DNA from: Bolinopsis microptera
Taxonomy: Eukaryota; Ctenophora; Tentaculata; Lobata; Bolinopsidae
Assembly (NCBI RefSeq): GCF_026151205.1
Contig: NC_087078.1
Span: forward strand, 19,197,765-19,261,764
Reading direction: 5' to 3'
Length of the DNA: 64,000 nucleotides
Every line of letters begins with the position of its first letter. Position 1 is the stretch's first letter. A program made the translations under genes and the position numbers. Shown piece after piece: positions 17,380-64,000 of the stretch. The notes under the pieces are model-generated. The model was given only the letters and a program-made list of their open reading frames with translations. It was not told the origin of the DNA and made no database searches.

Positions 17380-20300
17380 TCACGTGTTACTATCATTCCC
17401 CTCACCACCCTGGTCATGTTCAGACTCACTCTTAATCTGTATCCCTGCTTGGAGAGCCGGCACAGGACTTTGTAAATTCGGCACACTACTTTGCAGTGCT
17501 GGCATGACTCGAGTCATGCGCGGCGCGGGTGATAAACACGGTATTATACCCAGTCCTCCTTGAGGGGACGATGAGTGTATTGGGGCAGGTTTTAGAGATG
17601 GTGGCCCGATGGGTCTCATGGGGTGTCTGATAGTGTTGTTAGATAGTCCACTCATGGGTGATAATACAGGAATACTTGGGACAACTGAATCACAGATCTT
17701 CACCAGCTTGGTGGGCTTTTTCAGCAGAGCTTCATCTCCATCACATCCAACGGGGCGTTTCCTCTTCTGAGCGATAATATCGGGTGGGCTTGGAATAGTT
17801 TTGAGAGAATCAGGCCCGAAAGGGCTGGACATGGTGGGCATGTGTCCCTGGGACATGGGAGGCGGTGTGAGCATTGGTCCGACGTCTGTAGGAACTGGGT
17901 TGTATTCAGAAAGAGAGCTCATAGCTTCACATTTTACTACAGTTGGAGGAGGACTAGCCACCTTCACAGAGCTCATATCGTAGTCTGACGAGATAACGGG
18001 AGATTCCTTTGTTTCTTGTTTGGGTTTCACGGGTTTGATGTTGTTTTTGTGGTGGTGGGTGAGGATCCTGAGTATACTATGCAGAGTCAGAGGAACAGAC
18101 AGGTATCTACTGGCAATCCCACTGAGAACTGATGTTTTCTGTGTGTCAGATGAGGATACGGCCACCACAGTTTCCGACCTGATCTGTGAGGAGAAGCTGG
18201 TCTGTGAGGAGAAGCTGGTCTGTGGTGAAATGTCCATGTTCATAACACAGAGCTGGGGTAGCTCGGGGTGAGCGAACACGAACTCGATGGAGCAGCCCGG
18301 TTGAAGGGTAATGTCAACTGTGGTCTGGTTGCAACATGTTGTTGTTGGGAGGTTGTCATGACAACTTAATATCAGCCTGTTGTAGACTGTTTGCTGTCGT
18401 AACATGTTGATAATCACTGGGACCTGTAAGTTGTTTAACAATATTTAGTTTTATATGACTAATAATGGAGGTGAAACGTGTTTTCTATAAATTAGATATA
18501 TTATATTATTATATTATTATATATTCATTTCATTTCATTGTACATATATATGACGCATAAATGTTAAAGCACACGGCATTTTCCTGACCATGGCTAAGAT
18601 AATTTCAATAATGTGTCCTCCAAACCTGGGATGGGTGTGAGAAGGGAATACGGTGAATTTCAACAGCTTTCTCATCGCCACTGCAGGGGAGGTAGTACAC
18701 GTGGTTCAGTTTGTTGTGTTTCAGAGACTTATCCTTGTTTTGCAGCACCTGGCTCAACCTGTAAACATGTTCATAATTACGTTACGAGTAGTATTAAAAA
18801 CAATAACGATCGTTATTTTCGTGAAACCAACCCGTTTAATCCAATAAAACAACGAAATTAATCTCCTTGGCCTAAGGCAAAAGAACAATGTCCCACAATA
18901 CCACAGAACAATGTGTCACAATACCACAGAACAATGTGTCACAATACCACAGAACAATGTCCACAATAACACAGAACAATTTCCACAATAACACAGAACA
19001 ATGTCCCACAATAACACAGAACAATGTCCCACAATAACACAGAACAATGTCCCACAATACCACAGAACAATGTCCCACAATACCACAGAACAATGTCCAC
19101 AATACCACAGAACAATGTCCCACAATACCACAGAACAATGTCCCACAATACCACAGAACAATGTGTCACATACCCCGCATTGTTGAGCAACAACTCCAGG
19201 AATGTGGTGGACACTGCCTCAACTTTAATGAGACTGTTGTTTCCTAGTTTCTTGAGGAGAGCGTTCATCTTAGATACGGTCATTACAAGGGGCCTACTTA
19301 GCCTCATTACAAATGTGGCTTCCACATATTCTGAAAAATACAACTCACGATGAGGAGATCAAATTATCTTGATCTAGATTATAAATAATTTTGGGCATCA
19401 TCCTTCTAAATTAAGAGAATATATTGAATTTACTTTTGTCAATTGGTCCCGCTGCTCACTAAACCAATAATTAAAAGAACAAATTAGGTAATATTACAAA
19501 CAGTACAGCGGGTTAACTTACCGGAATTAACTTTAAGGGACAACTGTTTAAACTCGTTGTTTCTGATAAACAAGTTTTGTGTTGGTAGTTGGTTGGTATT
19601 GGAACACTCCACTCCGATACTCACACTAGCTGACTCCTCCCCCAAAACATCACTCCCAGTCCCACTTTCTAGTTTCACTTTCACTTTCTCTTTCACTTTC
19701 TCTTTGGCTTTCACTTTGTTCTCACTGTTAATCAGTGACGTGTTGTGGAAGTACAGTATCTTGATGCCCATGCCACCACGTGACTTTATCACGTGACCAG
19801 TGTGGGTGTTGTTGATAGAGTAGGAGGTGGGAGGGTCTGGACTATTACTCATCACAATCAGGTCACTCTCCAGCGATCTGATCGATATATCGTATTTAGA
19901 ATTTATATACGAGGAATCATGATCATCAATATAGAGGCAGGTATAAATCGTTCATATTTGCAAAATTTATTGAGCAACAATATAATTGGACAAATTATTT
20001 TAAAAAACTGTGAAGAATGTTTTATCAAAAAACACATGTCCGTAACCAAACCTTAGAGCAGAAAACAGGATAGGTCGGACTCTGGGCTCCAAAGGAATGT
20101 TAAAAATGCTGATGAACCCCTTGAGGTGTTCCTGGAATTTGTTAAAGTCCCACTCGTTAAGCGTGTCCGCTATGTGGGGCTGGTCTTCTGGTTTTCCCTC
20201 CGTTACCAAACTCACTTTAGCTCCCGTACTCTGTGTTTAGTGGTAACGTTAGCAATCCAGGTATTCATATATTGGAGCTATTCACATATATATTGGGTAT

Positions 20301-29748: not shown

Positions 29749-29777
29749 ACTCTGACATTCTGACTTAGAGTTTGTAG

Positions 29778-31442
29778 CTAGTTTTTTGAAGTAAGGATGT
29801 TTTGTTTATACCGATTCAATGCCTGTTGCATGATGGGGCACTGCTCTGAGCTGGAATGGTGAGTGTTACAGTGAGATGAGATTCTTGGATCTTTTGACAG
29901 ACTGCAATTGCGACATCTATGTCTGCTAGGGTCTTCCTTGTAATGACATTCTGATGTTCTATGCCTACCGCTGCAATACATACAAACCAGAGTTTCTTTC
30001 TCAGGACAATTTTGGGAAATATGGTGGAGCTTCTGACAATTATAGCACTGCTTGATGATGAATCTATCCTTTACAGGACAAGCACTATTCAGAATGAAGA
30101 TTTTGCCGTCTCCTGTCAATAGGTTCCTAATCTGAGGAGAGACCTTGATCCCAGCAGTAGTGTACCTTAGTCCAACATTTATGTACACAATTTCAAAGAA
30201 ATGCTCATTATCTAGCAAGTGTTTAAGTCCAGGATTTTGCAAGGGAATAATATCTAGAAGAGCTTTTTTAGTCTGTAACCGGAAATCTTCAGCGGGCAAA
30301 CCAGAGCGATCAATGGTTTCGAATATCTGACTGGGAATATTAGACACAGTGACCTTAGGGAGAGCTTTCTGTGAGAGAGTGATGTGAAAACCAAGTAATT
30401 TAATGACATCAGAGTTTTCAATAAGACTTTTAGCCTTCAGCCTATCAGATGAAGATGGAAAAACTAGCGTTATCTTCTTATGTGAATCTAGTAGGCTAGT
30501 TTTCATAGCAATCAATCGTGTGTCATAGAGCAACTCAGATAGAACATCTGGAGCAGATGAAATATCAGCAGAAGGAGAGGGACTATCTAGCACCAATATC
30601 TCTTTACTTTCCTTGCTAATTTGATTTATGTTAGCGGACACTTTACTTGGCTGAGGAGAACTAGCACCACCTACAAGAGCTTCAGCAAAATTGCTGTAAG
30701 AGGACAGTGCACTTGGAGACCGGGATTGCAAGTTTTCTTTGTTAACATTAGAAACTCGCTCTTCCAGCGAATGTTCAGAGGCTGGAGCACATAGAGCAAG
30801 CTTGTCGACAATAATGCTATGCATTTCCTCACGAAATGATTCCAGAAGGGCAGAGTTGTTTGCCCTCATCAGGTGCTCAACTTTGGAGAGAATATCAGGA
30901 GCTTCATCATGACCATTATCATGACTCATCACAGGGTTGGACTTAGGAGCATCTACCACAGATGGTACAGGTGGACCAGGTGGAGAAAAGTTTTTGGAAA
31001 AACGGGTGTCATCTACCAGTGAAATGCAATCTTCACATACGAATAGAAAATAACCCCAACGAGCTTGATCTGCAATCATAGGTCTCACCTTAGCACGGAA
31101 GGTATTTGTACAAATGGACTCAGGAAATTGAACACCGGTTTTTTTGCGACAAGCGGAGTGAAACATCCCATCACAGACATTACAGATAATCGATTCATTC
31201 ACAGTGTCATTACTCCCACACTGTTTACACGAGCCGTCTTCAAATACAGGAAGTATAACAGAGTTCTTCTTTGGCTTTAGAGTCTTCTTGAGCTTCTTAC
31301 TGGCCAGGGCCTCGTGCCCCTTTTGGCCCGCCATTGACATTGCTTCCTGAAACTCAATAAATGTATTTAATTGTAGTTGTGAAAAAAGTTTAAAGCTATT
31401 GCCAATATATATTTTTTTAGAAACCATTTTTGTCAGACGCAC
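29778..31442 (-). CDS. LINE ORF1: PHD-like finger plus zinc-knuckle protein
   Basis: Open for 554 codons. The likely start is the internal MSMAGQKGHEAL Met at about 31337, or the first Met at 31442. It has an N-terminal PHD-like Cys/His cluster (CKQCGSND, CNVCDGMFHSACR, CEDCISL), a long Ser-rich middle, and C-terminal Cys-rich knuckles (CYNCQKLHHISQNC, CMYCSGRHRTSEC, CRNCSLSKD). PHD-type ORF1 proteins are known from CR1-related LINEs; the role is nucleic-acid binding in the retrotransposition RNP. Confidence 0.9.
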   Translation of the reverse strand: MRLTKMVSKKIYIGNSFKLFSQLQLNTFIEFQEAMSMAGQKGHEALASKKLKKTLKPKKNSVILPVFEDGSCKQCGSNDTVNESIICNVCDGMFHSACRKKTGVQFPESICTNTFRAKVRPMIADQARWGYFLFVCEDCISLVDDTRFSKNFSPPGPPVPSVVDAPKSNPVMSHDNGHDEAPDILSKVEHLMRANNSALLESFREEMHSIIVDKLALCAPASEHSLEERVSNVNKENLQSRSPSALSSYSNFAEALVGGASSPQPSKVSANINQISKESKEILVLDSPSPSADISSAPDVLSELLYDTRLIAMKTSLLDSHKKITLVFPSSSDRLKAKSLIENSDVIKLLGFHITLSQKALPKVTVSNIPSQIFETIDRSGLPAEDFRLQTKKALLDIIPLQNPGLKHLLDNEHFFEIVYINVGLRYTTAGIKVSPQIRNLLTGDGKIFILNSACPVKDRFIIKQCYNCQKLHHISQNCPEKETLVCMYCSGRHRTSECHYKEDPSRHRCRNCSLSKDPRISSHCNTHHSSSEQCPIMQQALNRYKQNILTSKN

Positions 31443-31450
31443 ACACGTGA

Positions 31451-32591
31451 CAGGTGGCTAGTCTCATAAACCAATCATATTTGAGCTATTTATGCTTAAA
31501 TATTCAAGTTCATTTTTTCATGGTTTTTAAGTAATCGTGAAAATAATGTAAAAATTTTAAATACAAATTTGTGTTGATTGACGTTGTCAACCTTTTCAGA
31601 TCGTTGCTCTGCGAAGCAAAACAACAATCGCGCGGCCGGCCGGCCGCAAAAAGCTTTCTCGCCGGCCGGCTTGTAGGTTTACAACCTATTAGGACGCGCG
31701 CCGAGTTGGACTCGTCGACGGTCCAATATATGGAACAGATATTCTACGAGTATCACCCGTTAACGGCCGGCCGGCGTGCATGTTTCGCGTGCACGAGAGG
31801 TATACAACGTGTAGCAAGCTTGCTCTATCCAGAGCCGTTACGCTTGCAGTAGCGCGCGCCCGCCTCATGGCTGTAAAAGGGCTCTAAAAATTACAAGCGC
31901 GCCCGCAACGGCGCGAAAGCACATGGTTAGGTGAACTAAATGGCCACGATATAGATACAGCTGCACATTTGTGCGCGGCAGGTCTGCAACGTATGACAGC
32001 AAACAAGTCAAAATATAATTGCGCCCGTGCGGCGTGCATGCTTTCGGTACGGAAATATTCACCTAGCCATGAGTCTACCCGTACTGCGTGACGCGCTTGT
32101 TTCACGCGCTTGTTTCCTGTGCCACCTTTGGCGGTCGCACGCTACTGTAAGCGAAAGGGTTCTGGATAGAGCAAATGGAAATATAACCTAGTGCGCCATA
32201 ATTTTTCACTTTATATTGATCGTGTTTTATTTGGGTTCATATCATGCAATGATCATATTTTACATCTGTGGGCAATATTTTTAATATTTTTGACTAGTTT
32301 TATTTAATGTTTATTTATTGCTGTACCGCGCTGCAAAGACTTATGATTAGGTGAATTAATGATTGGAATACGTTTTATCGTTTATTATAATTATTGTCTA
32401 TACCTTTTTTACGCATAGAGCCGCAGTGATATAACATAAAAAGGTATGCTCACTATGCATGCAACGTGTATCAAGTAAATGGACGAGCTAATTTTAACCT
32501 GGTTTAGTTTTTTTTAAAACTTCCATCCCATTATACAATATCAACAATGTAATAGTATATAGTGGTGTAATTATTTAAAAAATTCATGTGC
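31451..32591. other. GC-rich block upstream of the LINE, then AT-rich spacer
   Basis: 31620-32150 is markedly richer in CpG than its surroundings, with repeated ccggccgg motifs, cgcgcg tracts, and an inverted pair in which ctctatccagagcc (about 31824) reappears inverted as ggttctggatagag (about 32157). Short frames on both strands resemble nothing known. It might be the 5' end or promoter of the LINE or a separate element of roughly 340 bp bounded by that pair. No gene called. Confidence 0.4.
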
Positions 32592-41810: not shown

Positions 41811-44800
41811 ATGACAGGTAAATCGTTGATATTATGTTTGATATAATATTATAATATCAAGCATGATATCTTCTTGACGTTTCTTATTTGTTGTACCTTG
41901 TCCTTATTTCATAACCTATCTCCCTTTACACAAAGCCCCATTTTAGAAGCACTGCGAAGCGAGCTGTCCCGGAGGATGATGTACATGGATGGTGGTATGG
42001 GAACCATGATACAAGAACTCGACCTCAAGGAGGCTGACTACCGAGGTTTGAACTGTTAATTGGGATGAAAACTGTTAACTTTTCATAGTTATAAAATAAT
42101 GTAGATTTTTTTGATTCATTAAATTTGAAGCAACTACTGACTCAACCTTATAATAATTTTATTAGCTGTAGTTAAATAAAGTCTAAACAGGAGAACAGTT
42201 CTCCGAGCACCCGTGTCCGCTGATTGGTAATAACGACCTCCTCTCAATTACACAACCTTATCAGATCAAGAAGATTCACAAAGTTAGTTTTACCATATTT
42301 TCTAGGTTTTCGTTTACATTTTCCTATCTGTCGGGTTTCTTGTCTTTACATAACTTGGAAACTGCTGAAAACTTCAATTTTTTCTCTGGTATTAAACCGG
42401 GGTTTTAATTTATGGGTAGTGACACTGCCAGGTGACATCGATAAAATGGTATTTGTCGTGGAAGAGATGCTCTGCGTCCGATAAGAGAATTAACTTATCA
42501 ATTTACAAAGACTTAAATTTTTAACAAAGTTAAATTTTAACAATTCTTAATATAACCGGAGTACGTAATAATGACCAGATTATACTGCATTGTAAAAGTT
42601 TAATTAATATACAGGCTACGTCTGGTACTACCAGTACTGGTAAAATTGCAGTCCGGTCTGTAAGTTCATGACACTTATTTCTTCGTCAAACCCAAGCAGC
42701 TGTATGCAGCCCCCCGCCCCCCCCCCCCCCCCCCCCCGCCCCCGCTCAACCCCCCCCCCCCCCCGGTGGAACTGCAACTACCAACATGACATAAAAACAA
42801 CCTTATATATATATATATGATATACAGGGTGTACCACAGTATATCACATCAACTCTAATCTTTTTACAGGACTATCTACTGACTGGAGGAGCAGACTTCA
42901 TTTCTACCAACACTTTTAACTCAACAAGCATTGCAATGGCTGATTACCAGATGGAAAACTTGGTATGATAGTTAATAGTATGATTTAGTTTCATTCAAAA
43001 TACATTTTCTCTTTCCTACCCAATATTGAGGATAAAGTTTATTAAACTTTCCTATCCTGTTTTTACAAACTGTAATCCGTCAAATTTGGAACTGACACCC
43101 CCCCCCCCCCCCCCTAATCTTTACTCCCTTAGTAAATGTGATTTCTCCCAGGTGTACCAGCTGAACATGGCTGCAGCGAAGGTAGCAGTAGAAGCAGCCC
43201 AGGAAGTGACGTGTGAGACAGGAGTAGTGAGATATGTTATCGGAGTCCTGGGTCCCACTAACAAGACTCTGTCTTTATCTCCGAGTGTGGAGGACCCTGC
43301 TTTTAGGAATACCAGTGAGATTTTAGTAAAAATGAGAATCTCAGAAAATTGATGATAAAACGTCAGCGAATTATTAAATACAGTAACATAATATCATAAT
43401 ATATTATATAGTATATAATAGTTGTGCTAGTGATCATCTGTACAGCGGAGAGATCAAATCTCAGCTTGGTTGTCCGCCGGGGTAATAGTTACGTGCTCCA
43501 GCCTGGGTAATAGTTACGTTGTCCAGCCTGTGCCGCTTAGTTAGCTTAGTTAGCTTAGTTAGCTTAGTTAGCTTAGTTAGCTTAGTTAGCTTAGTTAGCT
43601 TAGTTAGCTTAGTTAGTGTATGACGTCATATCTTATCAGCGTTTGACGAGCTGGTAACAGCGTACACGGAACAAGCCACAGCACTACTCGACGGAGGCGT
43701 GGATATTCTCATGGTTGAGACCATATTTGATACTCTCAACGCTAAGGCCGCACTTTTTGCCATCAGTCAGCTGTTGGAGACGGACAAATATACACATTTG
43801 GATGTTCCTATTTTTGTAAGTTTTTATAATATCACGGATTTGATGAGTGAGTGAATTTTTTTCAAAAAAGTTATTATTTACGAATGAATTGGGTGCATTT
43901 TTGTGAAATATGAAATTGAAGAGAAAAACATAAATATTATGTAGTATACTAGTAGTAAATAGAGATATTACTACCACTTTCCTTTTATTTATTCTCTGGA
44001 TTTTGACTAAAATAACTTTCTTCCGCTGCGAATAAAGTTGAACTCAATACATTCCGCAGATTTCTGGAACTGTAGTAGATCTAAGTGGACGGACCTTGTC
44101 CGGACAAACAGTTGAGGCTATGGTAACGTCCCTAATGCACTTCAAACCTCTGTGTATGGGGCTCAACTGTGCTCTGGGTGCTACTGAAATGAGACAATTC
44201 ATTAGAGAACTAGGTTAGTTGGCTGCTAAATGGTAATTAATGGTTCTCTTATTTTTCACTATTTATTTTAGTATGTTTTCGATCGTTTGCAAAGAATAAT
44301 TCATATGCATATGAATTATTCTTTGCAAACGATCGAAAACATACTAAAATACCATATATATGGTCACGAGCGACAATTTGTAGTGCCAGAATTCTGCAGA
44401 ATTCTGACTCCATGAAAATTAATTCTAAACCAACTTTTTAAACAGGTGAGTTTTGTGATACGTATGTGAGTTGTTATCCGAACGCTGGACTACCTAACGC
44501 TTTTGGAGGATACGATGATTCTCCAGAGGAGATGGCTGAGATTCTACAGGTTTTTATAAACGGCTAGTTTTTTAATCAATAGAGTAACCCGGGTTTCCTA
44601 TCATTATTGCTCGAGAACCGTAGAGTAACCAAGTAACCAAATAACCAAGTAACCAAATAACCAAGTAACCAAGTAACCAAGTAACCAAATAACCAAGTAA
44701 CCAAGTAACCGAGTAACCATGTAACCAAGTAACCAAATAACCATGTAACCAAGTAACCAAATAACCAAGTAACCAAGTAACCAAGTAACCATGTAACCAA

Positions 44801-47800
44801 GTAACCAAGTAACCATGTAACCAAGTAACCATGTAACCAAGTAACCAAGTAACCATGTAACCAAGTAACCATGTAACCGAGTAACCAAATAACCAACTCC
44901 TCTCCTCAGGAGTGGTCGGACTCAGGACTAGTGAACATACTGGGGGGTTGTTGTGGTACCACACCGCAACATATCAGAGCTATTGTAGAAGCAACTAAAC
45001 ATGCTCCTCCCCGCTTACCGCACTCTAAACTGGACACCTTCAAACTCACTCTATCTGGTGAGAATAGTGTTTAATGATGAGCCCTTATTTTTCTTCGTGT
45101 TACTAGAGTCAGTGAATGCGTGAGGGGACTGAAGTGTCCGTCAGTTATGTGTTTTTAGTCGAGCTGTTATAACTTGTTTTAGCCGCATCGTTCATTTTAT
45201 AACAAAACCATTTTTCAGGTCTTGAACCCATGTTGGCGTTTGAAGAGAGCAACTTTATCAACATTGGGGAGAGGTGCAATGTGGCCGGTTCAACTGTATT
45301 CAAGAAACATATAATGAACGATGATTTTGCAGTGAGTATAACAGTGTTTGATGCAATTTTATTAAATCTAGACATCTATAATGTATACAGTATAACAGTA
45401 ACAGCTGTCAACAACGAAAATTTTCTCATTTTTGGTGGAAAATATGGATTGCGCCGTGTACATTGTAAAGGAAAATGGCGCGCAAATGCTATTATTTTGG
45501 CGCGCATGCATGCATGCAGTTACCTAAATACCTTAATTCCCAAAAATTTGGGCGACAAAAAATTTGAGCGGGCCTCTCGCCCAAATTTTTTGCAGACCAA
45601 ATAAATTGCATAAATCTTTTCCGTCTGCTAAATTTTTTGCTAACCAAACTTTTGGCATTTAGCCTGTGGCCCTGAGATCTTTACACTTTAGAAAGATGGC
45701 TTTTTCTTCATATCCAAGTGAAATAATATTTGAAATTTTAGTTTTCTAATCTGTCATTCATGGCTTAACCAAGTGAAATGACAGATTTCACTAGAAATTA
45801 ACGATTTTTAGTGGAAAATCGTTCATTTTTCGAAGAATTTGTGCCCAAATTTTTGGTCGCCCAAATGAGTTCAAATTTTCTGCCCAAATTTTTCGGGCTC
45901 AAATAAATTGTGCTCAATATAATGGCACACAAATTTTTGGGAACTAAGGTATACTTAGAGGAATCACGCCGAATGTTAGTTTCTCGGAAATATAGTTTCC
46001 CAATCTTGCATCTCGCCTGATGCCCAATGCGGGCAATGCCCATTACATCCCTTCATAGAAAGCCGAAAAGGGCTGCTTTATTTGACCGAGTGCAGTGGAT
46101 AGAATTAAGTCCCAGAGGTAGACCGAAGTTAAAAGGTCATAGTTATAGAACCTGAATAAATACCTAACCTTCACAATATAACACGTGATGTCGGGAAAAT
46201 CAGTAACGACAATTTTCTTAATGCTAATAATTTTTATTCAAATTTGTTTACGCCAAAAAATAAAATCAGATATCTGAAGATGGTGAAATCAACATGTTTT
46301 CTTCGTGCAGACAACTGCTCCGTTTCTGAGACAGGTGCAGACGTTGCAATCGTCCCTGATTTGCTCTCCCTCGTTGTATTCCTTGCCTTTGTATTCACAA
46401 GCTGCCCAAGCTTTGTCATCATCACAAATCTTTTTCGTGCAAGCAACTGCTCCATCTCTGAGACACCTACAAAGGTTACAGTAGTCCTTGAATCTGTCTC
46501 CTTCCTCGTATTGTTCGCCTTTATAATCGCAGGTGTCTTTGGTTTCTTCATCGCAGTTCTTTTTTGTGCAGACAACTTTTCCACTTCTTGTGCAGCCACA
46601 GTTGTTGCAATTGTCATGGAATCTCTCTCCTGCTTCGTATTGCTCACCTTTGTACTCACAAATGACGATAGTATCGTCATCACAATCGTCTCCGTCCGCT
46701 GTGCAAATAACTTTGCCATCTCCGAGACAGTGACAGAGGTTGCAGCCGTCTTTAAAATCTCCAGCTTCGTAATGTTTACCTTTGTACTCGCACATGGCAT
46801 CACAGTTTTTTTCAGTGCAGATAACTTCCCCAGTTCTGGTGCAGCCACAGTTGTTGCAGTCGTCCTTGAATCTTTCTCCTGCTTCGTATTGCTCACCTTT
46901 GTACTCACAAGTGGCTTCACCATCGTCACGATCACATGCTTTTGATGTGCAGACTACATTTCCATCTCTGAGGCAGTGGCAAATGTTGCAGTCGTCTTTG
47001 AATTCTCCAGCTTCGTATTTTTCACCTTTGTACTCACAAGTGGCTTCAACGTCGTCACGATCACAAGCCTTTGATGTGCAGACTACATTTCCATCTCTGA
47101 GGCAGTGGCAAATGTTGCAGTCGTCCCTGATTGCATCTCCAGCATTGTACTCCCTGCCTTTGTGTTCACAAGTTGCTTTGTCTTCGTCATTATCACAGTT
47201 CATCTTCGTGCAGACTACTTCTCCAGTTCTGGTGCAGCCACAGTTGTTGCAGTCGTCCTTGAATCTCTCACCAGCCCTGTATGTTTCACCTTTGTGCTCA
47301 CAACCTACGGGTACTGGTCTGTCACCTCTCACTGACACTGCAGCTAGTACCAGTATGACAATCACTAACATTATCTTCATCTTTAATTCCTTGAAGAGTG
47401 AAAAGGTTAAAATGAGTTGTTGGATTAAAGAATTGAAACTATAATTGTACGTGTAAAAGTTCATATGAAAAAAGCTCTGTCTATAACTGATAGTTAGGAC
47501 ATCAAGGAACATCGTCCTACATTAGCAAAAGTTAGCTGTGGTGTAAATTGTAAAGTCATATTAATTACATATGTAATTAATATGTATACATGTTGGTAAA
47601 ATGGATCAGTCTTTAAACGTTTAAAAGAGAGATCGTTTAGCAGTAAGTGACCCAGTCCAGGGCGAGAAAAATCTTTAAGGAAGCCCTTTCCGCTGCAATG
47701 AGAACATCAGAAAATATCTACTTTCCTCCGACTCCTCCGCCCCTTTTAAACGGCTTAACGTCCTTTGTTGATTTGTTTTACACATCTGGATCAGTGTGAA

Positions 47801-50800
47801 AAGTTTTTTATAATAAGGTCTATTTGTTAAATCCTTTGTTAAATCGTTTTTAACTTTAGAGTGTGAGAAGGTTTTTTAAAGAAATGTTTCTCACACTATA
47901 GAGGCGAAAATGACTCTTTTGTTAACATGTTTTTGTGCGTTAAGGAAATTTAAAAACCGCGATAACACGCCCATGACGGGCTCTAACCACAATAACAATT
48001 TTGCAATTTTAACATGAAGTTAGCTGGTAGTCGGGCTAATGCTCAGAGGGTGGTATATTTTGTTTTAAAGTGTGAACTGCGAGGACGAGATAGATGTTTT
48101 TTGTTATAAACTGATAAATAGCTTAATTGAACCTATTGTATTTTTATATAACACCTTTCCTCACTCCATCCTGAGCTAGACTAACAATGAGAATCTTTGT
48201 GTTTGCACCAATAGTAGTAGTATACACGCCATCTCCATGCAGTCCATTAAAACTATAAAAACAGAGTGAGGCTGGTCGTGGTGTTATGACGTTTCCTTTG
48301 TAAGTATCAAATATCATTACCGAAAAGTCAAGAAAAATGAAAATATAAACCTAAAAATATAAACGTACGATGTTTCTGCGTTCGTGAATTCCGCGTTATT
48401 TGACCATTATTGATCTCCACGAATAATAAATACACGATCTAAAATAACCGAGTTTAACCGGCGCGGAGGTTCTTTTTAGTTTAGTTTCATATTTCTCACC
48501 AGGCAGCACTAGAGATAGTTTAGTTAAAACTAAACACATTTCTCACCAGGCAGCACTAGAGATAGTTTAGTTAAAAGTAAACACATTTCTCACCAGGCAG
48601 CACTAGAGATAGTTTAGTTAAAAGTAAACACATTTCTCACCAGGCAGCACTAGAGATAGTTTAGTTAAAACTAAACACATTTCTCACCAGGCAGCACTAG
48701 AGATAGTTTAGTTAAAACTAAACACATTTCTCACCAGGCAGCACTAGAGATAGTTTAGTTAAAACTAAACACATTTCTCACCAGGCGGCACTAGAGATAG
48801 TTTAGTTAAAACTAAACATATTTCTCACCAGGCAGCACTAGAGATAGTTTAGTTAAAACTAAACACATTTCTCACCAGGCGGCACTAGAGATAGTTTAGT
48901 TAAAACTAAACATATTTCTCACCAGGCAGCACTAGAGATAGTTTAGTTAAAACTAAACATATTTCTCACCAGGCGGCACTAGAGATAGTTTAGTTAAATC
49001 TAAACACATGTCTCACCAGGCAGCACTAGAGATAGTTTAGTTAAAACTAAACACATCTCTCACCAGGCAGCACTAGAGATAGTTTAGTTAAAACTAAACA
49101 CATTTCTCACCAGGCGGCACTAGAGATAGTTTAGTTAAAACTAAACACATTTCTCACCAGGCAGCACTAGAGATAGTTTAGTTAAAACTAAACACATTTC
49201 TCACCAGGCGGCACTAGAGATAGTTTAGTTAAAACTAAACACTTTTCTCACCAGGCGGCACTAGAGATAGTTTAGTTAAAACTAAACACATTTCTCACCA
49301 GGCAGCACTAGAGATAGTTTAGTTAAAACTTAACACATTTCTCACCAGGCAGCACTAGAGATAGCCAGGAGACAGATTACAGAAGGTGCACAGATCCTGG
49401 ATCTTAACTTTGACGACGGAATGATTGACGGGGAGAAAGCCATGGCTCATTTTGTGAACCTGATTACGTGTGAACCTGACGTTTCTAGAGTCCCACTCTG
49501 CATCGATTCCTCGGACTTTCAGGTCAGTTCTCTCGTCCTAACTCCAATAATTGATCGACCCTTACTTTTACCCGCTTAGCAACTCTTGTGGAAAAAACTT
49601 GATCATAACTTTAACGCATTAACAATTCAATTCACTTTCCCAAATATTGAAGCTACCTGACCTCAATCGTCCTTATTTATATTTGTTTTGAACAAATATC
49701 ATTTTAACGAGTACGCCCAATTGGCTGCCCCGCCCCCCCCCCCCCCCCCCCCCCCCGGCCCCCCCCCCCCCCCCCCCCCCCCGCCAAGATAAACTACACA
49801 GGTAATAGAGGCGGGGCTGAAGTGCACTCAAGGGAAGTGTATTGTTAACAGTATCAGCTTGAAGGAGGGTAGGGAGGAGTTCCTTGCCAAGGCAGCTATT
49901 GTTAAAAGATATGGTGCTGCTGTGGTTGTAATGGCTTTCGATAAGCAGGGCCAGGTCAGCAGAAAGTATATCAACTTTCATCATCCAGGCTGTTAAATTC
50001 GCCAAATTTTCGTCAAAAAGTACGGCGTATTTAGAGTTCTCAGAAAGTACGCGAATAATTCGCCAATTTACAACTTCAAGTTTTAATTTTTAGGGCTGTT
50101 AGTGTTAAATTCGCCAAAAAATGCGCAGAAAATTCGGTAAAAATGCGGCAGTGGGAACTCGCAGCATTCTCGAGTACTAACCAGTAACCACGCACGTGTT
50201 GCGGGAAGCACATGTTTTGGCAATATTCCACCATACAAAGCCAACTTTCGTGAACAATTTGATGTGGGCACGTGATTTCCTGTTTCCGTATTTTTTTAAA
50301 TGCGGCAATTTTCAAAAAAAAATCGTACGCGAATTTAATTCGATTAATACGTTTAGTGCGAATTTAACAGCATTGTTTATCATTCCAATAATTTGTAGTT
50401 GAATTAGTTAAATACATACATCACATTTATGTGAATCAATAATTCAACATATTAATTAATAATTTAACCACGACCGCGACCGTCTTTCCACGTATTGTTT
50501 TTAAAACTCTAGTATTACCTGCTACATAATATACCCTATACAGGCGGACACGTTTAAACGGAAGATAGAGATCTGTAAACGGTCCTATGATCTGTTGGTG
50601 CATGAGGGTGGGTACAACCCTACAGACATTATATTCGACCCTAACCTGCTAACTATTGGAACCGGGCTGGTGGAGCATGCCGAGTATGGCCGGGACTTCA
50701 TCAGGGCCACTGAGTGGATCAAGGTTTTAAAATATACAATATATACATTCTTGGAAATTTCGGATTTACAATTTACATCGGTTAAAATATCTGTAATTTG

Positions 50801-53800
50801 AAACCTGGCTGTGATTAATTTGGTTCTCCTTTTAATTGTAGTATTTTGTGATTTTGTAATTTTTAATTTTTAATTTTTAATTTCAGAAAAACCTGCCCGG
50901 TGCCCATGTGTCTGGTGGACTTTCAAATCTTTCCTTTGCTTTCCGGGGAAACAGAATTATCCGAGAAGCGATGCATTCTGTCTTTCTGTCTTATGCTACT
51001 CAGGTAAGCTTAAACTCTGATATATCAGTATGATATGGAAAGACTGACGAGAGTTCTGAATGTGTTGCTGACTGCTGACTGCTGACTGCTGACTGCTGAC
51101 TGCTGACTGCTGACTGCTGACTGCTGACTGCTGACTGCTGACTGCTGACTGCTGACTGCTGACTGCTGACTGCTGACTGCTGACTGCTGACTGCTGACTG
51201 CTGACTGCTGAATATCGCACGTAGCTATCGCCATATAATGGAGGTCGTTAGTGTAAACCATATTCGTAAGTTCAAATGTTTTATTTCATAACACCCCTCA
51301 TTCTGCAGTTTGGTCTGGATATGGGGATAGTTCACGCTGGGAATCTCCCTCTTCTCAAAGATATTGACTCTACTCTCAAACAACTGTGCGATGATCTCAT
51401 ATGGAACCGAAACGGCGAGGAAGTCACCGACCTCATGCTGCTCTACGCAGAGGTTTGTAATTGGAATTTGGATACTGAACGGTGTCATATTATTCAGTTG
51501 TTTTAAACAACTTATCGGTTTTAAGTTATAGTGCAAAGATTTAGAATTGGCGGTTATTTACAAATTCGAAGTTCCTAGCGTTTCAAATGGAAATACCGTG
51601 AGACCCTCTATTATTATTATCAGAGATCTCAACCGCCAGTACTAAATTGTTTACGCTAATATAAGATACCTAGTCTTGTGTTGTTAATTGTTTTATTTAA
51701 TTTGTATTTTTGTGAGTCCTCTACCAGAGCTATTGCAGAAAGTTAAAGGTAGTGGGGGAAAGAAGAAGATGACAGACGATGATTGGTTCAAGAAACCGCT
51801 CGACGCGCGACTATCTGATGCCATAGTAAATGGAATCGACAAACATATAGTGACGGATGTTAAAGAACTACAGTTAACGACAGACATAGAACCTTTACAG
51901 ATTATTGAGGGTCCCCTGCTAGATGCTATGGGGATTGTGGGAGATCTCTTCGGATCCGGGAAGATGTTCCTTCCTCAGGTGCTTTCAAAATACAGATCAC
52001 AGTTCACACAATAAAACAATTAGCTAATTTCTTTATGAAGGTCAAAAATTGCGTTAATTACGTCTTAGTTTAAACTGACATTTCCTAATCAGTTTGTCTT
52101 TATTTTTATTGGAGCAATATGTTCAAGGTGATAAAAAGCGCGAGAGTAATGAAGAAAGCTGTTGCCTACCTCACTCCTTTTATTGAGGCATCAAAAGTTG
52201 AAGGACAGAATTACAAAGGTAACGATCAAGGATTTTTATCTGTCACGAAAAAGTCATTTTAAATAATCAAATTTTATGATTTTGCCTTCACTATATTTTT
52301 CCTGTGTCCACTGCTCCACGATTTCCTGCCCCAGATTTTACAGTCCTCTAAAATCTAAATCAATGCTAGAGTTGTTATAATAATGGGGATAGAGAGCAGG
52401 CCCATGAGTTGATATCACTGAACAACAGGATACAGCTCACAGCGCACTTCTTATTCTTGTTCCCTCCTTTAAAGGTACGATAGTGCTAGCCACAGTGAAG
52501 GGCGATGTCCACGATATTGGTAAAAACATTGTTGGTGTAGTGCTGGGATGCAACAACTACAGGTATTTATAATTCTCTACAGGTATTATATTACGCTGCT
52601 AGCTTTTATATAACTACTTATCTAATGAAGTTAGATCAGGATGAGCAAGTGTATCGGGGGGTTGATCTCTGATACCCTACTATATCTCTGTTGATACTAT
52701 ATTTCAATATAACTCTGCTGCAAAATTAATGGTTTGCCTCTACAGGGTTATTGATTTGGGGGTGATGTGTCCTTTAGAGAGGATACTGTCGACAGCAGAC
52801 AAGGAGAAGGCAGACATTATTGGAGTGTCGGGTATGTGGAATATAATTAGCAGATTATCATTACCGAGTACTCCTTACTCCTTTCGCGAATAATAACCTC
52901 TACGGTTATAACCTCAACGGTTATAACCTCAATCATAACCTTTATATCATAATCTTAATTATAACCTCTATATCATAGCCTCAATTATAACCTCTATATC
53001 ATAACCTCAATTATAACCTCTATATCATAACCTCAATTATAACCTCTAGTATAAACTGGTTTCCTTATCCCACAGGTCTGATAACTCCATCTCTAAGGGA
53101 GATGGTGAACATAGCAACTGAGATGAACAACAGGGGGATGACTACACCTCTACTTATTGGGGGAGCAACTACCAGCAGGTAGTGTGTGCTTTCTTAGTAG
53201 TGTGTGCTTTCTTAGTAGTGCAGTATCTTACAGTCGTCTCAGTGGTAACTACCAGCAGGTAGTGTGTGCTTTCTTAGTAATGCAGTATCTTACAGTCGTC
53301 TCAGTGGTAACTACCAGCAGGTAGTGTGTGCTTTCTTAGTAATGCAGTATCTTACAGTCGTCTCAGTGGTAACTACCAGCAGGTAGTGTGTGCTTTCTTA
53401 GTAATGCAGTATCTTACAGTCGTCTCAGTGGTAACTACCAGCAGGTAGTGTGTGCTTTCTTAGTAATGCAGTATCTTACAGTCGTTTCAGTGGTAACTAC
53501 CATGCCAGCAGGTAGTGTGTGCTTTCTTAGTAATGCAGTATCTTACAGTCGTCTCAGTGGTAACTACCAGCAGGTAGTGTGTGCTTTCTTAGTAATGCAG
53601 GTAGTGTGTGCTTTCTTAGTAATCTTACAGTCGTCTCAGTGGTAATTTATTACGTATGTTGGTAATTACTGGTAATTACAGGTAATTGATTACCTCAGAG
53701 GTACTGCTTTGTCTCCTCTTTCATCTTACAACTACAATAACATTCTATTCAGGAAGCACACACTACAATAACATTCTATTCAGGAAGCACACACAACAAT

Positions 53801-56416
53801 GACATTATATTCAGGAAGCACACACTACAATAACATTCTATTCAGGAAGCACACACAACAATGACATTATATTCAGGAAGCACACACTACAATAACATTT
53901 TATTCAGGAAGCACACACTACAATAACATTATATTCAGTAAGCACACACTAACATGACATTATATTCAGGAAGCACACACTACAATGACATTATATTCAG
54001 GAAGCACACACTAACATAACATTCTATTCAGGAAGCACACACTACAATAACATTCTATTCAGGAAGCACACACTACAATTACATTCTATTGAGGAAGCAC
54101 ACACTACAATAACATTCTATTCAGGAAGCACACCGCGGTAAAGATCTGGCCATCTTACCCCGACTTGTGTATCTACGTCCCGGATGCGTCCCGGGCCGTT
54201 AACGTGGCCACGTCCCTCGTTAACAAGGACCCGAAGTATATGGGGGACATTAGGAAGCTGTATGAGAAGGTGCAGCTGGATCACACCAAGGTTCTTCAGG
54301 TAGGAGATTTTTTTGAAATGAGTTTCCAGTTAGATACAGGTAGTTGTATTGCCGATCTTTTGGCAGGGCGACGGTTTACTTATTTTGAATTGAGTATATT
54401 TTTTACTGTGTCTGGTAACTCAGTAGGTATACCTACCTACTTAACTCGGTTTCTATTTTTACAGAAGAAACAAATAACCCCTCTACTAGACTGCAGAAAG
54501 AAGAGATTCCAATGCACCATGCCCACCCCTCCGACTCCAAACGAATTAGGTAATTATTTGTTTTATCACTTTATTATCAGACGAATACACTAATACAGTT
54601 GCCTGATTAAATATAAAATAACATACCGGGGTTACGTGTGTTTGAATTAATGTTCTAGAAAAGAAAAAAACAATTTCAGGGGTCCAAGTATTTGATAGTT
54701 ACGATCTGAACGAAGTCGTTGAGCTGATCGATTGGAAGCCGTTTTTCGATGTGTGGCAACTTCGTGGTCGTTACCCCAATCGGTCTTATCCCAAACTATT
54801 CGATGATAAGACAGTAGGTACGTAAGTCTTGTAGTTGTACACTGTCATAAGCTGTAGTACATATATAATTATATATTACATTACATTTTTTTAAATGGTT
54901 GCCCCCCCCCCCCCCCCCCCCCCATTGTGATTTAATTTAAATATCCTAATGACCCACCAGGAGCTGAAGCAAAGAAGCTGTTTGGTGATGCTCAGGAAAT
55001 GCTTGCGGAGTTGATGACGTCACTGGAAGGGAAGGCTGTGATTGGTCTGTTTCCAGCTCACTCCCAGGAAGATGACGTGATTATTCAGCACGGGGGACGG
55101 GATTTAACCTGTTACATGCTCAGACAGCAGGTTCAGTTCTAACCCTGTCTTTATTTCTTTAACCTATATACTATATAGTAATCCATTCATTACAAGTATG
55201 AAGACAAAACTGAGGAACCATATCTCAAATCAGTATCCATATCGCAGATAAAGTCAGGGAAAGAGGACGTGTACCTGAACACATCTGATTTCATTGGTCC
55301 ACCTGGGTCACATGATCACATGGGCATGTTCTGCTGTTCTATTTTTGGCTCTGTTGCCATGGCAGCTAAGTATGAAGATGCGGGTGATGATTACAATAGT
55401 CTCATGGTTAAGTCTCTGGCTGATAGATTGGTGAGCAAACTATTTTCCACCCTTATTTATGTTTGTTCAAATTCAATACAATCATATATAAGTATTTAAG
55501 TTAGCTTTGTAGATTTCTCCAGATGTGATCTATATATTATTTGGGTTAAGTTTAGTTTTATTGTCACCAGGTTGAAGCATTAGCTGAGCATCTCCACGTG
55601 AAAGTTCGCACAGACCACTGGGGATACGATAACAACGAGGACCTGGACATCGCCGACCTTCATTCTGTGAAATACCAGGTACATAAGTACAGACGATTAT
55701 TCGTAAATTATCATTGTCGGACCTTTATTAAACGCACCATTTTAAAATGTAGATTGTGGACCGATCTAAAAGCTCTTTTATCAGACCCTCTTGGAAAAAA
55801 TTAGATACTAAGGACACCAGTAGGGAAGAGTTGTGACTATACATTAGAAGTTAGTAGTAGTACTATTTGTATAGTCCCACTGTAAATATCCTGACTCAGG
55901 GCACAAGGCCAGCCCCCGGTTATCCGTCCCTACCTGACCACGCCCTTAAAGACGTGCTCTGGGACCTTCTCAGCGTGTCCGGCTCCATTGGAACTGAGCT
56001 GACTGACTCGTACGCGATGTCACCCCCTGCTAGTGTGTGTGGACTGTATATTGCACACCCGGACTCCTTTTATTTCAACCTGGGACTTGTAGGACGGGAT
56101 CAGGTGAGATTTATTCTTTACTCGTTAGTTCTGCTGCCTGTGTGCTACTTATTTTCCTTCTTTTAGTTTGGAATACTTATTTAATAGAGGTTATGGTTAA
56201 CTCCACAGAATGTTAAATCAACCTATTTGAGTTACCACTTATCTACCGTAACTGCAATCCAGCCTTATATTTATAATAGTAGTAGTATACTACTACTATT
56301 ATAATAGCTCTATACTTCATCAGGTGGAGGATTACGCCCAAAGACAGAATGTTAGTGCGAGTAGTGTTGAGATATCACTAGATACTGTGTTAGGATACGA
56401 GCCTGCCAAGAGATGA
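41811..56416 (+). CDS. MTR: Cobalamin-dependent methionine synthase
   Basis: Exons: 41811-41817, 41947-42045, 42191-42282, 42870-42962, 43152-43314, 43640-43815, 44060-44213, 44446-44549, 44910-45057, 45219-45331, 49349-49522, 49802-49954, 50544-50723, 50887-51003, 51309-51452, 51739-51978, 52128-52218, 52475-52562, 52746-52831, 53076-53178, 54125-54299, 54465-54549, 54680-54817, 54961-55130, 55248-55430, 55571-55678, 55900-56103, 56324-56416. Phases agree throughout; 1226 residues (human 1265). It methylates homocysteine from 5-methyl-THF through methylcobalamin in the cytosol. Homocysteine domain: [10 protein letters not shown], zinc Cys in GLNCALG (about 247) and GGCCG (about 310-311). Folate domain: [30 protein letters not shown]12 domain: DVHDIGKN (axial His about 762). 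Activation domain: RPAPGYPS (about 1131-1138). Nothing essential is missing. Exon 1 codes only MT plus one base. Confidence 0.97.
42711..42765. repeat. Poly-C tracts in MTR intron 3
   Basis: Two C runs with a short interruption (gcccccgctcaa), about 105 bp before the exon 4 acceptor. Confidence 0.9.
43098..43114. repeat. Poly-C run in MTR intron 4
   Basis: About 16 C, 37 bp before the exon 5 acceptor, positioned where a polypyrimidine tract would begin. Confidence 0.85.
43532..43616. repeat. 9-bp tandem repeat in MTR intron 5
   Basis: About nine copies of gcttagtta. Lies 24 bp upstream of the exon 6 acceptor. Confidence 0.9.
44264..44351. repeat. Perfect palindrome, 44-bp arms, in MTR intron 7
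   Basis: Centre between 44307 and 44308 (tcatatg|catatga). The arms end in tattttagtatg on the left and its inverse on the right. No spacer, no mismatch seen. Confidence 0.95.
44622..44897. repeat. 8-bp tandem repeat in MTR intron 8
   Basis: About 34 copies of gtaaccaa with variants gtaaccat, gtaaccga and ataaccaa. Starts about 70 bp after exon 8 and ends about 12 bp before the exon 9 acceptor, so it fills nearly the whole intron. Confidence 0.95.
45531..45949. mobile_element. MITE with TA target site in MTR intron 10
   Basis: 419 bp flanked by TA (45529-45530 and 45950-45951). Terminal inverted repeats CCTTAATTCCCAAAAATTTG and the inverse of CCTTAGTTCCCAAAAATTTG differ at one base. The interior repeats caaatttttgggcg-type motifs in both orientations. 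No coding capacity; fits a non-autonomous Tc1/mariner-type element. Confidence 0.85.
46233..46238 (-). promoter_or_regulatory. Poly(A) signal of the VWC-repeat gene
   Basis: AATAAA on the minus strand, about 50 bp after the stop codon of the nested gene; orientation and spacing fit. Confidence 0.6.
46289..47380 (-). CDS. Secreted protein with eight VWC-like Cys repeats, nested in MTR intron 10
   Basis: 363 residues from the Met before a clear signal peptide ([19 protein letters not shown]); the open frame extends 44 codons further upstream but that part is not signal-like. The mature protein is eight tandem modules of about 35 residues, each with six Cys in the pattern C-x14/15-C-x2-C-x-C-x7/8-C-x4-C, e.g. 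[20 protein letters not shown] then [16 protein letters not shown]. Acidic linkers (DDD, DEE) join them. This resembles the first half of von Willebrand factor C domains found in matrix proteins and BMP modulators. No intron. Antisense to MTR and wholly inside its 4-kb intron. Modules 2 and 3 are nearly identical, also in DNA, indicating recent internal duplication. Function unknown; extracellular matrix or signalling is inference. Confidence 0.85.
   Translation of the reverse strand: MKIMLVIVILVLAAVSVRGDRPVPVGCEHKGETYRAGERFKDDCNNCGCTRTGEVVCTKMNCDNDEDKATCEHKGREYNAGDAIRDDCNICHCLRDGNVVCTSKACDRDDVEATCEYKGEKYEAGEFKDDCNICHCLRDGNVVCTSKACDRDDGEATCEYKGEQYEAGERFKDDCNNCGCTRTGEVICTEKNCDAMCEYKGKHYEAGDFKDGCNLCHCLGDGKVICTADGDDCDDDTIVICEYKGEQYEAGERFHDNCNNCGCTRSGKVVCTKKNCDEETKDTCDYKGEQYEEGDRFKDYCNLCRCLRDGAVACTKKICDDDKAWAACEYKGKEYNEGEQIRDDCNVCTCLRNGAVVCTKKTC
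48483..49364 (+). repeat. 47-bp minisatellite carrying the MTR exon 11 splice acceptor
   Basis: The true junction is tttctcaccag|GCAGCACTAGAGATAGCC. The same acceptor and the first 16 exon bases occur in every unit, 47 bp apart: the first AG is at 48502, the true one at 49348, exactly 18 periods. Between copies lies tttagttaaaactaaacac, which holds an 8-bp dyad (gtttagtt/aactaaac) and a branch-point-like ctaaac. A minority of copies has ggcggcac instead of ggcagcac. Entry at a decoy acceptor reads AALEIV and then TAG. Confidence 0.97.
49731..49782. repeat. Poly-C tract in MTR intron 11
   Basis: About 50 bases of C with one gg and few interruptions, ending 19 bp before the exon 12 acceptor (actacacag). 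Confidence 0.9.
49988..50371. mobile_element. Inverted-repeat element in MTR intron 12
   Basis: The ends GCTGTTAAATTCGC and GCGAATTTAACAGC are exact inverses about 384 bp apart; internal ttcgccaa and ttaaattcgc motifs recur. No coding capacity. Target-site duplication unclear, so the superfamily is open. Confidence 0.65.
51066..51212. repeat. 7-bp tandem repeat in MTR intron 14
   Basis: About 20 uninterrupted copies of tgctgac. Apparent frames of repeated SQQSAV come from the 21-bp triple period. Confidence 0.95.
52905..53045. repeat. About 26-bp tandem repeat in MTR intron 19
   Basis: Degenerate copies of tataacctctatatcataa and cctcaatt. Ends about 30 bp before the exon 20 acceptor. Confidence 0.8.
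53168..53640 (+). repeat. 62-bp minisatellite carrying the MTR exon 20 splice donor
   Basis: The true donor is ACTACCAGCAG|gtagtgtgtg at 53178. The last 11 exon bases plus the intron start recur with donor positions at 53258, 53320, 53382, 53444, 53511 and 53573 and, in partial form, at 53600. The first step is longer (80 bp) because ttagtagtgtgtgctttc is doubled. Read-through of the true donor meets TAG within the first intron codon (AGC AGG TAG). Confidence 0.96.
53733..54133 (+). repeat. 31-bp minisatellite carrying the MTR exon 21 splice acceptor
   Basis: The true junction is ttctattcag|GAAGCACACCGCGG at 54124/54125. The acceptor plus the first nine exon bases recur every 31 bp from 53752, twelve periods upstream. 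Variants include tatattcag, one attcagtaagc and one attgagg. Entry at a decoy reads RKHTLQ and then TAA in the common unit. Confidence 0.96.
54902..54923. repeat. Poly-C run in MTR intron 23
   Basis: About 22 C, 37 bp before the exon 24 acceptor (gacccaccag). Confidence 0.9.
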
Positions 56417-61252: not shown

Positions 61253-64000
61253 TAACACCTAAAATACGCAGGATTTGACGAGAGTGATATTGAGGTAGAT
61301 GTAACACCTAAAATACGCAGGATTTGACGAGAGTGATATTGAGGTAGATGTAACACCTAAAATACGCAGGATTTGACGAGAGTGATATTGATTAACACCT
61401 AAAATACGCAGGATTTGACGAGAGTGATATTGATTAACACTTATTATACGCAGGATTTGACGAGAGTGATATTGAGGTAGATGTAACACCTAAAATACGC
61501 AGGATTTGACGAGAGTGATATTGATTAACACCTAAAATACGCAGGATTTGACGAGAGTGATATTGATTAACACTTAAAATACGCAGGATTTGACGAGAGT
61601 GATATTGATTAACACTTAAAATACGCAGGATTTGACGAGAGTGATATTGATTAACACTTAAAATACGCAGGATTTGACGAGAGTGATATTGATTAACACT
61701 TAAAATACGCAGGATTTGACGAGAGTGATATTGAGGTAGATGTAACACCTAAAATACGCAGGATTTGACGAGAGTGATATTGATTAACACCTAAAATACG
61801 CAGGATTTGACGAGAGTGATATTGATTAACACTTAAAATACGCAGGATTTGACGAGAGTGATATTGAGGTAGATGTAACACCTAAAATACGCAGGATTTG
61901 ACGAGAGTGATATTGATTAACACCTAAAATACGCAGGATTTGACGAGAGTGATATTGATTAACACTTAAAATACGCAGGATTTGACGAGAGTGATATTGA
62001 TTAACACTTAAAATACGCAGGATTTGACGAGAGTGATATTGATTAACACTTAAAATACGCAGGATTTGACGAGAGTGATATTGATTAACACTTAAAATAC
62101 GCAGGATTTGACGAGAGTGATATTGATTAACACCTAAAATACGCAGGATTTGACGAGAGTGATATTGATTAACACTTAAAATACGCAGGATTTGACGAGA
62201 GTGATATTGATTAACACTTAAAATACGCAGGATTTGACGAGAGTGATATTGATTAACACTTAAAATACGCAGGATTTGACGAGAGTGATATTGATTAACA
62301 CTTAAAATACGCAGGATTTGACGAGAGTGATATTGATTAACACTTAAAATACGCAGGATTTGACGAGAGTGATATTGATTAACACTTAAAATACGCAGGA
62401 TTTGACGAGAGTGATATTGATTAACACTTAAAATACGCAGGATTTGACGAGAGTGATATTGATTAACACCTAAAATACGCAGGATTTGACGAGAGTGATA
62501 TTGATTAACACTTAAAATACGCAGGATTTGACGAGAGTGATATTGATTAACACTTAAAATACGCAGGATTTGACGAGAGTGATATTGATTAACACTTAAA
62601 ATACGCAGGATTTGACGAGAGTGATATTGATTAACACTTAAAATACGCAGGATTTGACGAGAGTGATATTGATTAACACTTAAAATACGCAGGATTTGAC
62701 GAGAGTGATATTGATTAACACTTAAAATACGCAGGATTTGACGAGAGTGATATTGATTAACACTTAAAATACGCAGGATTTGACGAGAGTGATATTGATT
62801 AACACTTAAAATACGCAGGATTTGACGAGAGTGATATTGATTAACACTTAAAATACGCAGGATTTGACGAGAGTGATATTGATTAACACTTAAAATACGC
62901 AGGATTTGACGAGAGTGATATTGATTAACACTTAAAATACGCAGGATTTGACGAGAGTGATATTGATTAACACTTAAAATACGCAGGATTTGACGAGAGT
63001 GATATTGATTAACACTTAAAATACGCAGGATTTGACGAGATTGATATTGATTAACACTTAAAATACGCAGGATTTGACGAGAGTGATATTGATTAACACT
63101 TAAAATACGCAGGATTTGACGAGAGTGATATTGATTAACACTTAAAATACGCAGGATTTGACGAGAGTGATATTGATTAACACTTAAAATACGCAGGATT
63201 TGACGAGAGTGATATTGATTAACACTTAAAATACGCAGGATTTGACGAGAGTGATATTGATTAACACTTAAAATACGCAGGATTTGACGAGAGTGATATT
63301 GATTAACACCTAAAATACGCAGGATTTGACGAGAGTGATATTGATTAACACGTAAAATACGCAGGATTTGACGAGAGTGATATTGATTAACACTTAAAAT
63401 ACGCAGGATTTGACGAGAGTGATATTGATTAACACTTAAAATACGCAGGATTTGACGAGAGTGATATTGATTAACACTTAAAATACGCAGGATTTGACGA
63501 GAGTGATATTGATTAACACTTAAAATACGCAGGATTTGACGAGAGTGATATTGATTAACACCTAAAATACGCAGGATTTGACGAGAGTGATATTGATTAA
63601 CACGTAAAATACGCAGGATTTGACGAGAGTGATATTGATTAACACTTAAAATACGCAGGATTTGACGAGAGTGATATTGATTAACACTTAAAATACGCAG
63701 GATTTGACGAGAGTGATATTGATTAACACTTAAAATACGCAGGATTTGACGAGAGTGATATTGATTAACACTTAAAATACGCAGGATTTGACGAGAGTGA
63801 TATTGATTAACACCTAAAATACGCAGGATTTGACGAGAGTGATATTGATTAACACTTAAAATACGCAGGATTTGACGAGAGTGATATTGATTAACACTTA
63901 AAATACGCAGGATTTGACGAGAGTGATATTGATTAACACTTAAAATACGCAGGATTTGACGAGAGTGATATTGATTAACACTTAAAATACGCAGGATTTG
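61196..64000 (+). repeat. 42/49-bp minisatellite carrying the exon 3 splice acceptor, running off the window
   Basis: About 66 copies. The unit is the end of the intron (gattaacacttaaaatacgcag) followed by the start of the exon (GATTTGACGAGAGTGATATT). A longer 49-bp version with gaggtagatgtaacacct occurs at the left end (61223-61880), where the two types are mixed; from about 61910 only the 42-bp type remains, with small cctaaa, cgtaaa and cttaaa variants. Entry at any 42-bp copy reads GFDESDID and then TAA. The 49-bp copies probably preserve the original exon continuation (IEVDV). The right end of the array is outside the window. Confidence 0.97.

Follow-up and report, generated by a model that had tools for sequence, protein, structure and literature searches.

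How did a single intron come to carry tandem copies of its own donor at one end and of its own acceptor at the other, and how might such an intron still be spliced? The question is raised by the MTR gene of the ctenophore Bolinopsis microptera, which lies in a stretch of 64,000 nucleotides (the window; coordinates without a locus name refer to it). MTR exons were placed by tblastn with the human protein, an approximate query, and the junctions were then fitted. The resulting spliced model runs on the plus strand over 27 exons (41952..56414) and reads 1229 codons without a stop. Its closest relative among the best 120 of 7997 candidates is a Mnemiopsis leidyi protein (84% identity, full length), and the protein across the exon 19/exon 20 junction is identical to that of Mnemiopsis. 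The intron between these exons is the 19th among the located exons and would be the 20th if one further 5' exon lay upstream. Its layout is as follows.

53076..53178, plus strand: MTR exon 19 of the 27 located (gene model), 3' end ...ACTACCAGCAG
53179..54124, plus strand: double-array intron, 946 nt (about 200 nt with one unit per array)
53168..53623, plus strand: donor-spanning array, eight CAG/GTAG donors (the slash marks the splice site), 62-nt unit with about 12 nt from exon 19
53624..53730, plus strand: intron core separating the arrays; contains three imperfect GGTAATTAC copies and, at 53682, a donor-like CAG/GTAATT
53731..54133, plus strand: acceptor-spanning array, 31-nt unit in 13 copies, ACTACAATAACATTCTATTCAG/GAAGCACAC, the final 9 nt being the start of exon 20
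54125..54299, plus strand: MTR exon 20 (gene model), 5' start GAAGCACACCGCGG

The three imperfect GGTAATTAC copies, at 53650-53690, may represent a third small array within this intron. Several other features of the window were also observed. A 410-codon open frame on the minus strand (46292-47521), with a signal-like start and cysteine-rich 132-nt repeats, is nested inside MTR intron 9; nested genes have been reported from the ctenophore Hormiphora in the available part of that account (PMC8527503). Long open frames of 983 and 559 codons on the minus strand (26857-31457) resemble a non-LTR retrotransposon by eye. A 23-nt array at 18882-19164 lies beside an exon-like frame with weak Med1 similarity (PF10744, E 0.023) and, by eye, seems to adjoin a donor without spanning it. 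A 42-nt array of 62.6 copies occupies 61351-64000 and continues past the window end.

In the donor array, CAG/GTAG copies start at 53179, 53259, 53321, 53383, 53445, 53512, 53574, and 53601, and a ninth, partial copy without the preceding CAG lies at 53197. The array begins with an 18-nt partial duplicate and closes at its 3' end with a 27-nt truncated copy. The acceptor copies, each an AG followed by G or T and AAGCACAC, number 13 from 53753 to 54125, and the AG is preserved in 13/13. Tandem Repeats Finder reports a unit of 62 nt x 6.4 for the donor array and 31 nt x 13.0 for the acceptor array. A first-pass annotation of this DNA had counted seven donor copies and twelve acceptor copies beyond the real sites and had derived the arrays from the intron's own two junctions; both counts were recovered, and exon and splice-site sequence does lie inside the units. 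Genome searches (264.65 Mb, one assembly) found neither unit at another locus, and hence no older repeat family over both arrays elsewhere, the finding that the annotation had named as fatal to its view. We also considered the 62-nt unit as a dimer of the 31-nt unit and rejected this, the best half-to-half identity of 12/31 being equalled by 1746 of 2000 shuffles.

The five full donor units have a mean identity of 99.4% and the thirteen acceptor units one of 92.5%, with 8 distinct forms, so that the donor array looks younger or more recently homogenised. The acceptor copies resemble one another more closely over the 9 exonic nt (98.3%) than over the 22 intronic nt (90.2%); small numbers may account for this and are the sole explanation that we offer. 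Tandem arrays are a classic weak point of assemblies, and the structure might be an assembly artefact. However, the copies differ from one another (8 distinct units of 13) and in-frame exon sequence flanks the arrays, and we give this explanation hardly any credence. Structurally, the MTR intron is a mirage as known from lancelets: tandem units extend across both exon-intron boundaries (about 12 and 9 exon nt in the units), and the units carry splice signals (eight CAG/GTAG; AG in 13/13).

When each of the eight donor copies was combined with each of the thirteen acceptor copies, 103 of the 104 pairs reached a stop and the outermost pair was the only one to leave the MTR frame open; this test covered the donor and acceptor copies, with other donor-like words such as that at 53682 falling outside it. 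The outermost pair is probably the one used in MTR mRNA. Donors were scored at positions -3 to +6 with a matrix built from the other 25 introns of MTR. The donor copies are identical over these positions and all score 5.5, the authentic one included, which is low within the range of the gene's other 25 donors (3.7-11.3), and CAG/GTAATT at 53682 in the core scores 9.7, higher than every donor copy. Acceptor copies score 1.4-10.4; the authentic acceptor reaches 9.0 and one decoy 10.4. YTNAY is a branch-point motif. A branch-point-like word of this form, which is not derived from ctenophores, is absent within 40 nt from 8 of the 13 acceptor copies, the authentic one included; the first decoy acceptor is preceded by one, CTTAC, at a distance of about 25 nt. 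If the outermost pair is used almost always in the real mRNA, neither local strength nor a first-AG rule can account for the choice.

The first-pass annotation had further held that the two units share no sequence and that the expansions were independent. This is wrong on the first count and unsupported on the second. In direct orientation the longest exact match between the donor and acceptor units is 5 nt, whereas with one unit inverted the exact match extends to 13 nt (15/16 in local alignment). The match starts exactly at intron +1 and, on the other side, crosses the joint between acceptor units.

53179..53191, plus strand: GTAGTGTGTGCTT, intron +1 to +13, present in all nine donor copies and the exact reverse complement of AAGCACACACTAC
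53754..53766, plus strand: first exact AAGCACACACTAC joint between acceptor units (8 of the 12 joints are exact)

Among dinucleotide shuffles, the local score was reached in 1/3000 and a shared 13-mer in 0/3000. Among 272 comparisons between 17 array units, the donor/acceptor pair has the longest exact match and is second by local score (27), behind an AT-rich pair (22911/23392, 31). Across the genome (264.65 Mb) the 13-mer occurs at 23 exact sites, 17 of them in the MTR intron (9 donor-side and 8 acceptor-side) and the remaining 6 at 3 loci. Since the units share this inverted sequence, the two expansions were probably linked. A broader comparison of 67 arrays found 7 units, both MTR units included, that match their own flanks in inverted orientation over at least 12 nt, where 0.53 would be expected from the flanks of other arrays; 15 units match their own flanks in direct orientation. 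The excess of inverted matches stems partly from dispersed motifs. The third of the further 13-mer loci (L015) holds three short arrays and was included in this comparison.

Introners can carry terminal inverted repeats at intron ends. The MTR intron may resemble them in this respect, its inverted repeat lying at both ends and beginning exactly at intron +1, and a mobile element of this kind might have created the intron. Yet neither unit was found elsewhere, the 13-mer has no more than 3 loci outside this intron, coding sequence common to Mnemiopsis forms the end of the right-hand repeat, and the full right repeat exists solely across tandem joints. The MTR units thus differ from introners in that no dispersed family was found for them, and an introner family was rejected when dispersed near-identical copies forming other introns were not found genome-wide. 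We consider an introner origin extremely improbable.

Complementary arrays might instead act as a zipper in the pre-mRNA, keeping the two intron ends joined or concealing the decoys. Compared with 25 shuffled sequences, the region is predicted to fold more stably (z -6.8). Most pairing runs from one array to the other (204 predicted pairs, against 42 inside the donor array and 11 inside the acceptor array); the predicted duplex energy is -20.3 kcal/mol per 13-mer. However, complementary repeats would fold likewise without selection. The predicted unpaired fraction of the authentic donor is 0.24, within the range of the eight other donor copies (0.02-0.30). Since its pairing is similar to that of the decoys, nothing in the fold marks the authentic donor out, and selective masking of decoys by RNA structure is unsupported. 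A zipper function seems very unlikely to us.

Besides the double-array intron, three arrays and one duplication with coding flanks were found at exon-intron junctions in this genome, together with one more array that reaches a few nt into an exon. On the evidence of gene models and domain matches these make five further probable junction cases, with a possible sixth (L047).

48491..49364, plus strand: acceptor-spanning array of MTR intron 9/exon 10, 47-nt unit x 18.6, 16 exon nt
G000:C1:428000-434750: sushi-domain exons L040 and L041 (PF00084, E 0.002 and 8e-7)
L013, 3140-3582: 62-nt donor-spanning array at an SH3-like exon (PF14604 half-domain, E 0.037, below the Pfam cut-off)
L014, 4711-5682: 43-nt acceptor array of a deaminase-like gene (PF00383, E 3e-7), entering its last exon by about 5 nt
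L047, 226-275, minus strand: 25-nt two-copy repeat TTTTTCAGGT... directly after a BCCT transporter exon (PF02028, E 4e-10)

The last intact decoy acceptor of the MTR intron 9 array leads to a stop within a few codons, and its 47-nt unit contains, by eye, a hairpin GTTTAGTT-AA-AACTAAAC. At the first sushi exon, 54-nt units lie over the donor and at least 44 copies of AAGGTAAGT are listed; at the second, 4 kb on, the exon end and donor are duplicated once, 79 nt apart. L013 and L014 were identified through the 13-mer loci outside MTR. The intronic part of the 62-nt unit of L013 also contains AAGCACACACTAC, and the last exon of L014 is itself tandemly duplicated (287 nt x 2, 98%). The repeat of L047 may be a two-copy duplication of the exon's donor.

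Do such cases exceed what chance would place at junctions? Random placement was predicted from the unit length and from the length that each intron would have with single-unit arrays. The test set comprised 12 arrays of MTR introns and excluded overlapping Tandem Repeats Finder rows and the intron-2 arrays 42511-42543 and 42710-42764; 2.27 junction-spanning arrays were predicted and 3 observed (P = 0.40). With the two short intron-2 arrays added, the prediction was 2.42 of 14 (P = 0.45). A sample of 200 kb, drawn from 12 contigs at round coordinates, contained 73 arrays covering 10.7% of bases, or 0.97% when counted as single units. Independent seeding at 0.97% would cover about 5 introns per 50,000 at both ends, the number of introns being assumed. 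No junction-spanning case was recognised in this sample among 38 arrays with units of at least 15 nt, the flanks of 11 being inspected by eye, and such a screen gives no verdict where a flank has no recognisable coding sequence. One array of the sample, L030 with a 21-nt unit, takes up an intron of a Sec3-like gene (PF20654, E 1.2e-5) and, as far as it can be read, spans no junction.

Array density and the placement result fit two independent expansions by chance in a minisatellite-rich genome, with the inverted identity also fortuitous, and short inverted repeats of 8 nt are common between intron ends. The 13-nt identity, rarely or never matched by shuffling and present at only 3 further loci in 264.65 Mb, argues against this, and we regard chance as a possible but improbable explanation.

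Splice junctions might also be preferred seeds through a junction-linked cause, such as a DNA structure related to transcription or splicing. Two strong donor words were tandem-clustered at 6/134 loci compared with 1/198 for the reversed words (Fisher p = 0.019), in a small test, chosen post hoc, that covered the first 100 sites listed per word with clusters counted by eye. Counting the two clusters of one region once gave 5/133 (p = 0.040), and collapsing runs with a period near 400 or 1000 bases gave p = 0.015. Only two of the six clusters are verified junction cases, however, and these lie 4 kb apart in the same region; two have no coding flank (L042, L043), and for two the stretch examined stops short of the upstream flank (L044, L045). 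An acceptor-like word, TTTTTCAGG, formed 2 short-spaced pairs among the first 100 sites listed, one of which (L046) has no recognisable coding flank; the other is L047. The first MTR donor lies in a hairpin (ACTACC-AGCA-GGTAGT; z -2.27, matched by 9 of 200 shuffles), but with z values of -0.74 for an inner unit, 0.38 and 0.27 for the acceptor stretches, and 1.05 for L013, hairpins are unremarkable there. The first-pass annotation had taken the two arrays as evidence against chance and for a junction-linked cause. The donor-word clusters lend that view some support, which the placement of arrays in MTR (P = 0.40) does not, and we consider a junction-linked cause unlikely.

We therefore favor, with a probability of roughly 70%, a reading in which the MTR intron holds two mirages that arose by ordinary repeat turnover, one of them perhaps seeded by foldback of one intron end onto the other. 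Two stretches have been multiplied in tandem, one of 62 nt across the donor and one of 31 nt across the acceptor, and every unit retains GT or AG at the splice position. The copies would have been tolerated because the first donor is probably still spliced to the last acceptor, leaving the mRNA unaltered. The arrays may then have been lengthened and homogenised through slippage or unequal exchange.

Seeding of the acceptor array by foldback is a less certain element of this turnover scenario than tolerance and turnover themselves. If every array is collapsed to a single unit, donor +6..+13 (GTGTGCTT) and exon 20 +2..+9 (AAGCACAC) form an inverted repeat of 8 nt. To these 8 nt the acceptor joint adds five more, ACTAC, which is complementary to donor +1..+5 and also opens the intronic part of the acceptor unit. 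A strand ending in ...AAGCACAC could thus pair at the donor, copy ACTAC from the donor start, and re-enter the intron at its own ACTAC, which would produce a 13-nt inverted identity exactly across the unit joint. To judge from the same sequences, copying could also have run in reverse, from the acceptor joint to the donor. Inverted repeats of 8 nt occur between the ends of 3 of the 26 MTR introns (the collapsed double-array intron and introns 1 and 15). In yeast, short templated inverted insertions via foldback are described in the available part of one report (PMC11724301). A bolder version holds that intron ends seed each other's arrays by foldback over an inverted repeat shared by donor and acceptor; the arrays would then be complementary by construction, so that the ends of the pre-mRNA zip together. 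We consider this mutual seeding unlikely.

In lancelets, mirages with tandem units across exon/intron boundaries are described in Adh3, TnC, the globins BflGb6 and BflGb9, and PGBD5, at both 5' and 3' boundaries and apparently without aberrant mRNA; the Adh3 units measure 10-72 bp (PMC3087553, PMC3902484). As far as the available parts of these accounts go, the MTR intron shares with them the minisatellite-like duplication of boundaries and the many units carrying splice signals, but differs in being from a ctenophore, in having arrays at both ends of one intron, and in that its units are partly reverse complements. No double-ended intron was found in those parts of the lancelet accounts (PMC3087553, PMC3902484). 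Among the matches listed in the ctenophore, lancelet, and mirage literature, mostly outside subscription journals, there was no report of junction-spanning arrays in ctenophores. Human segmental duplications contain internal tandem repeats at exon-intron boundaries, and there too minisatellites at the boundary alter intron structure; in the available part of that account, however, they lead to novel introns or exon elongation, whereas MTR mRNA is probably unchanged (PMC2812944). The C. elegans minisatellite CeRep25B, which lies near alternative exons, is likewise a near-palindromic intronic minisatellite with possible RNA pairing, but in the portion available it is not described as being composed of splice junctions (PMC4039745).

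The MTR intron is an unusual double case of known boundary-copying repeats, and it extends mirages from lancelets to a ctenophore. Ctenophores are a proposed sister group of other animals. The finding suggests that mirages recur where minisatellites are dense. The intron also provides a natural test of splice choice, in which eight donors identical at -3 to +6 face thirteen acceptors, of which five have the same sequence throughout the unit, and protein would be made only from the outermost of the 104 copy pairs. The complementary units offer a testable route from an inverted repeat to a tandem array, and if mutual seeding were true, double-ended mirages would form a class of coupled, self-reinforcing events instead of two accidents.
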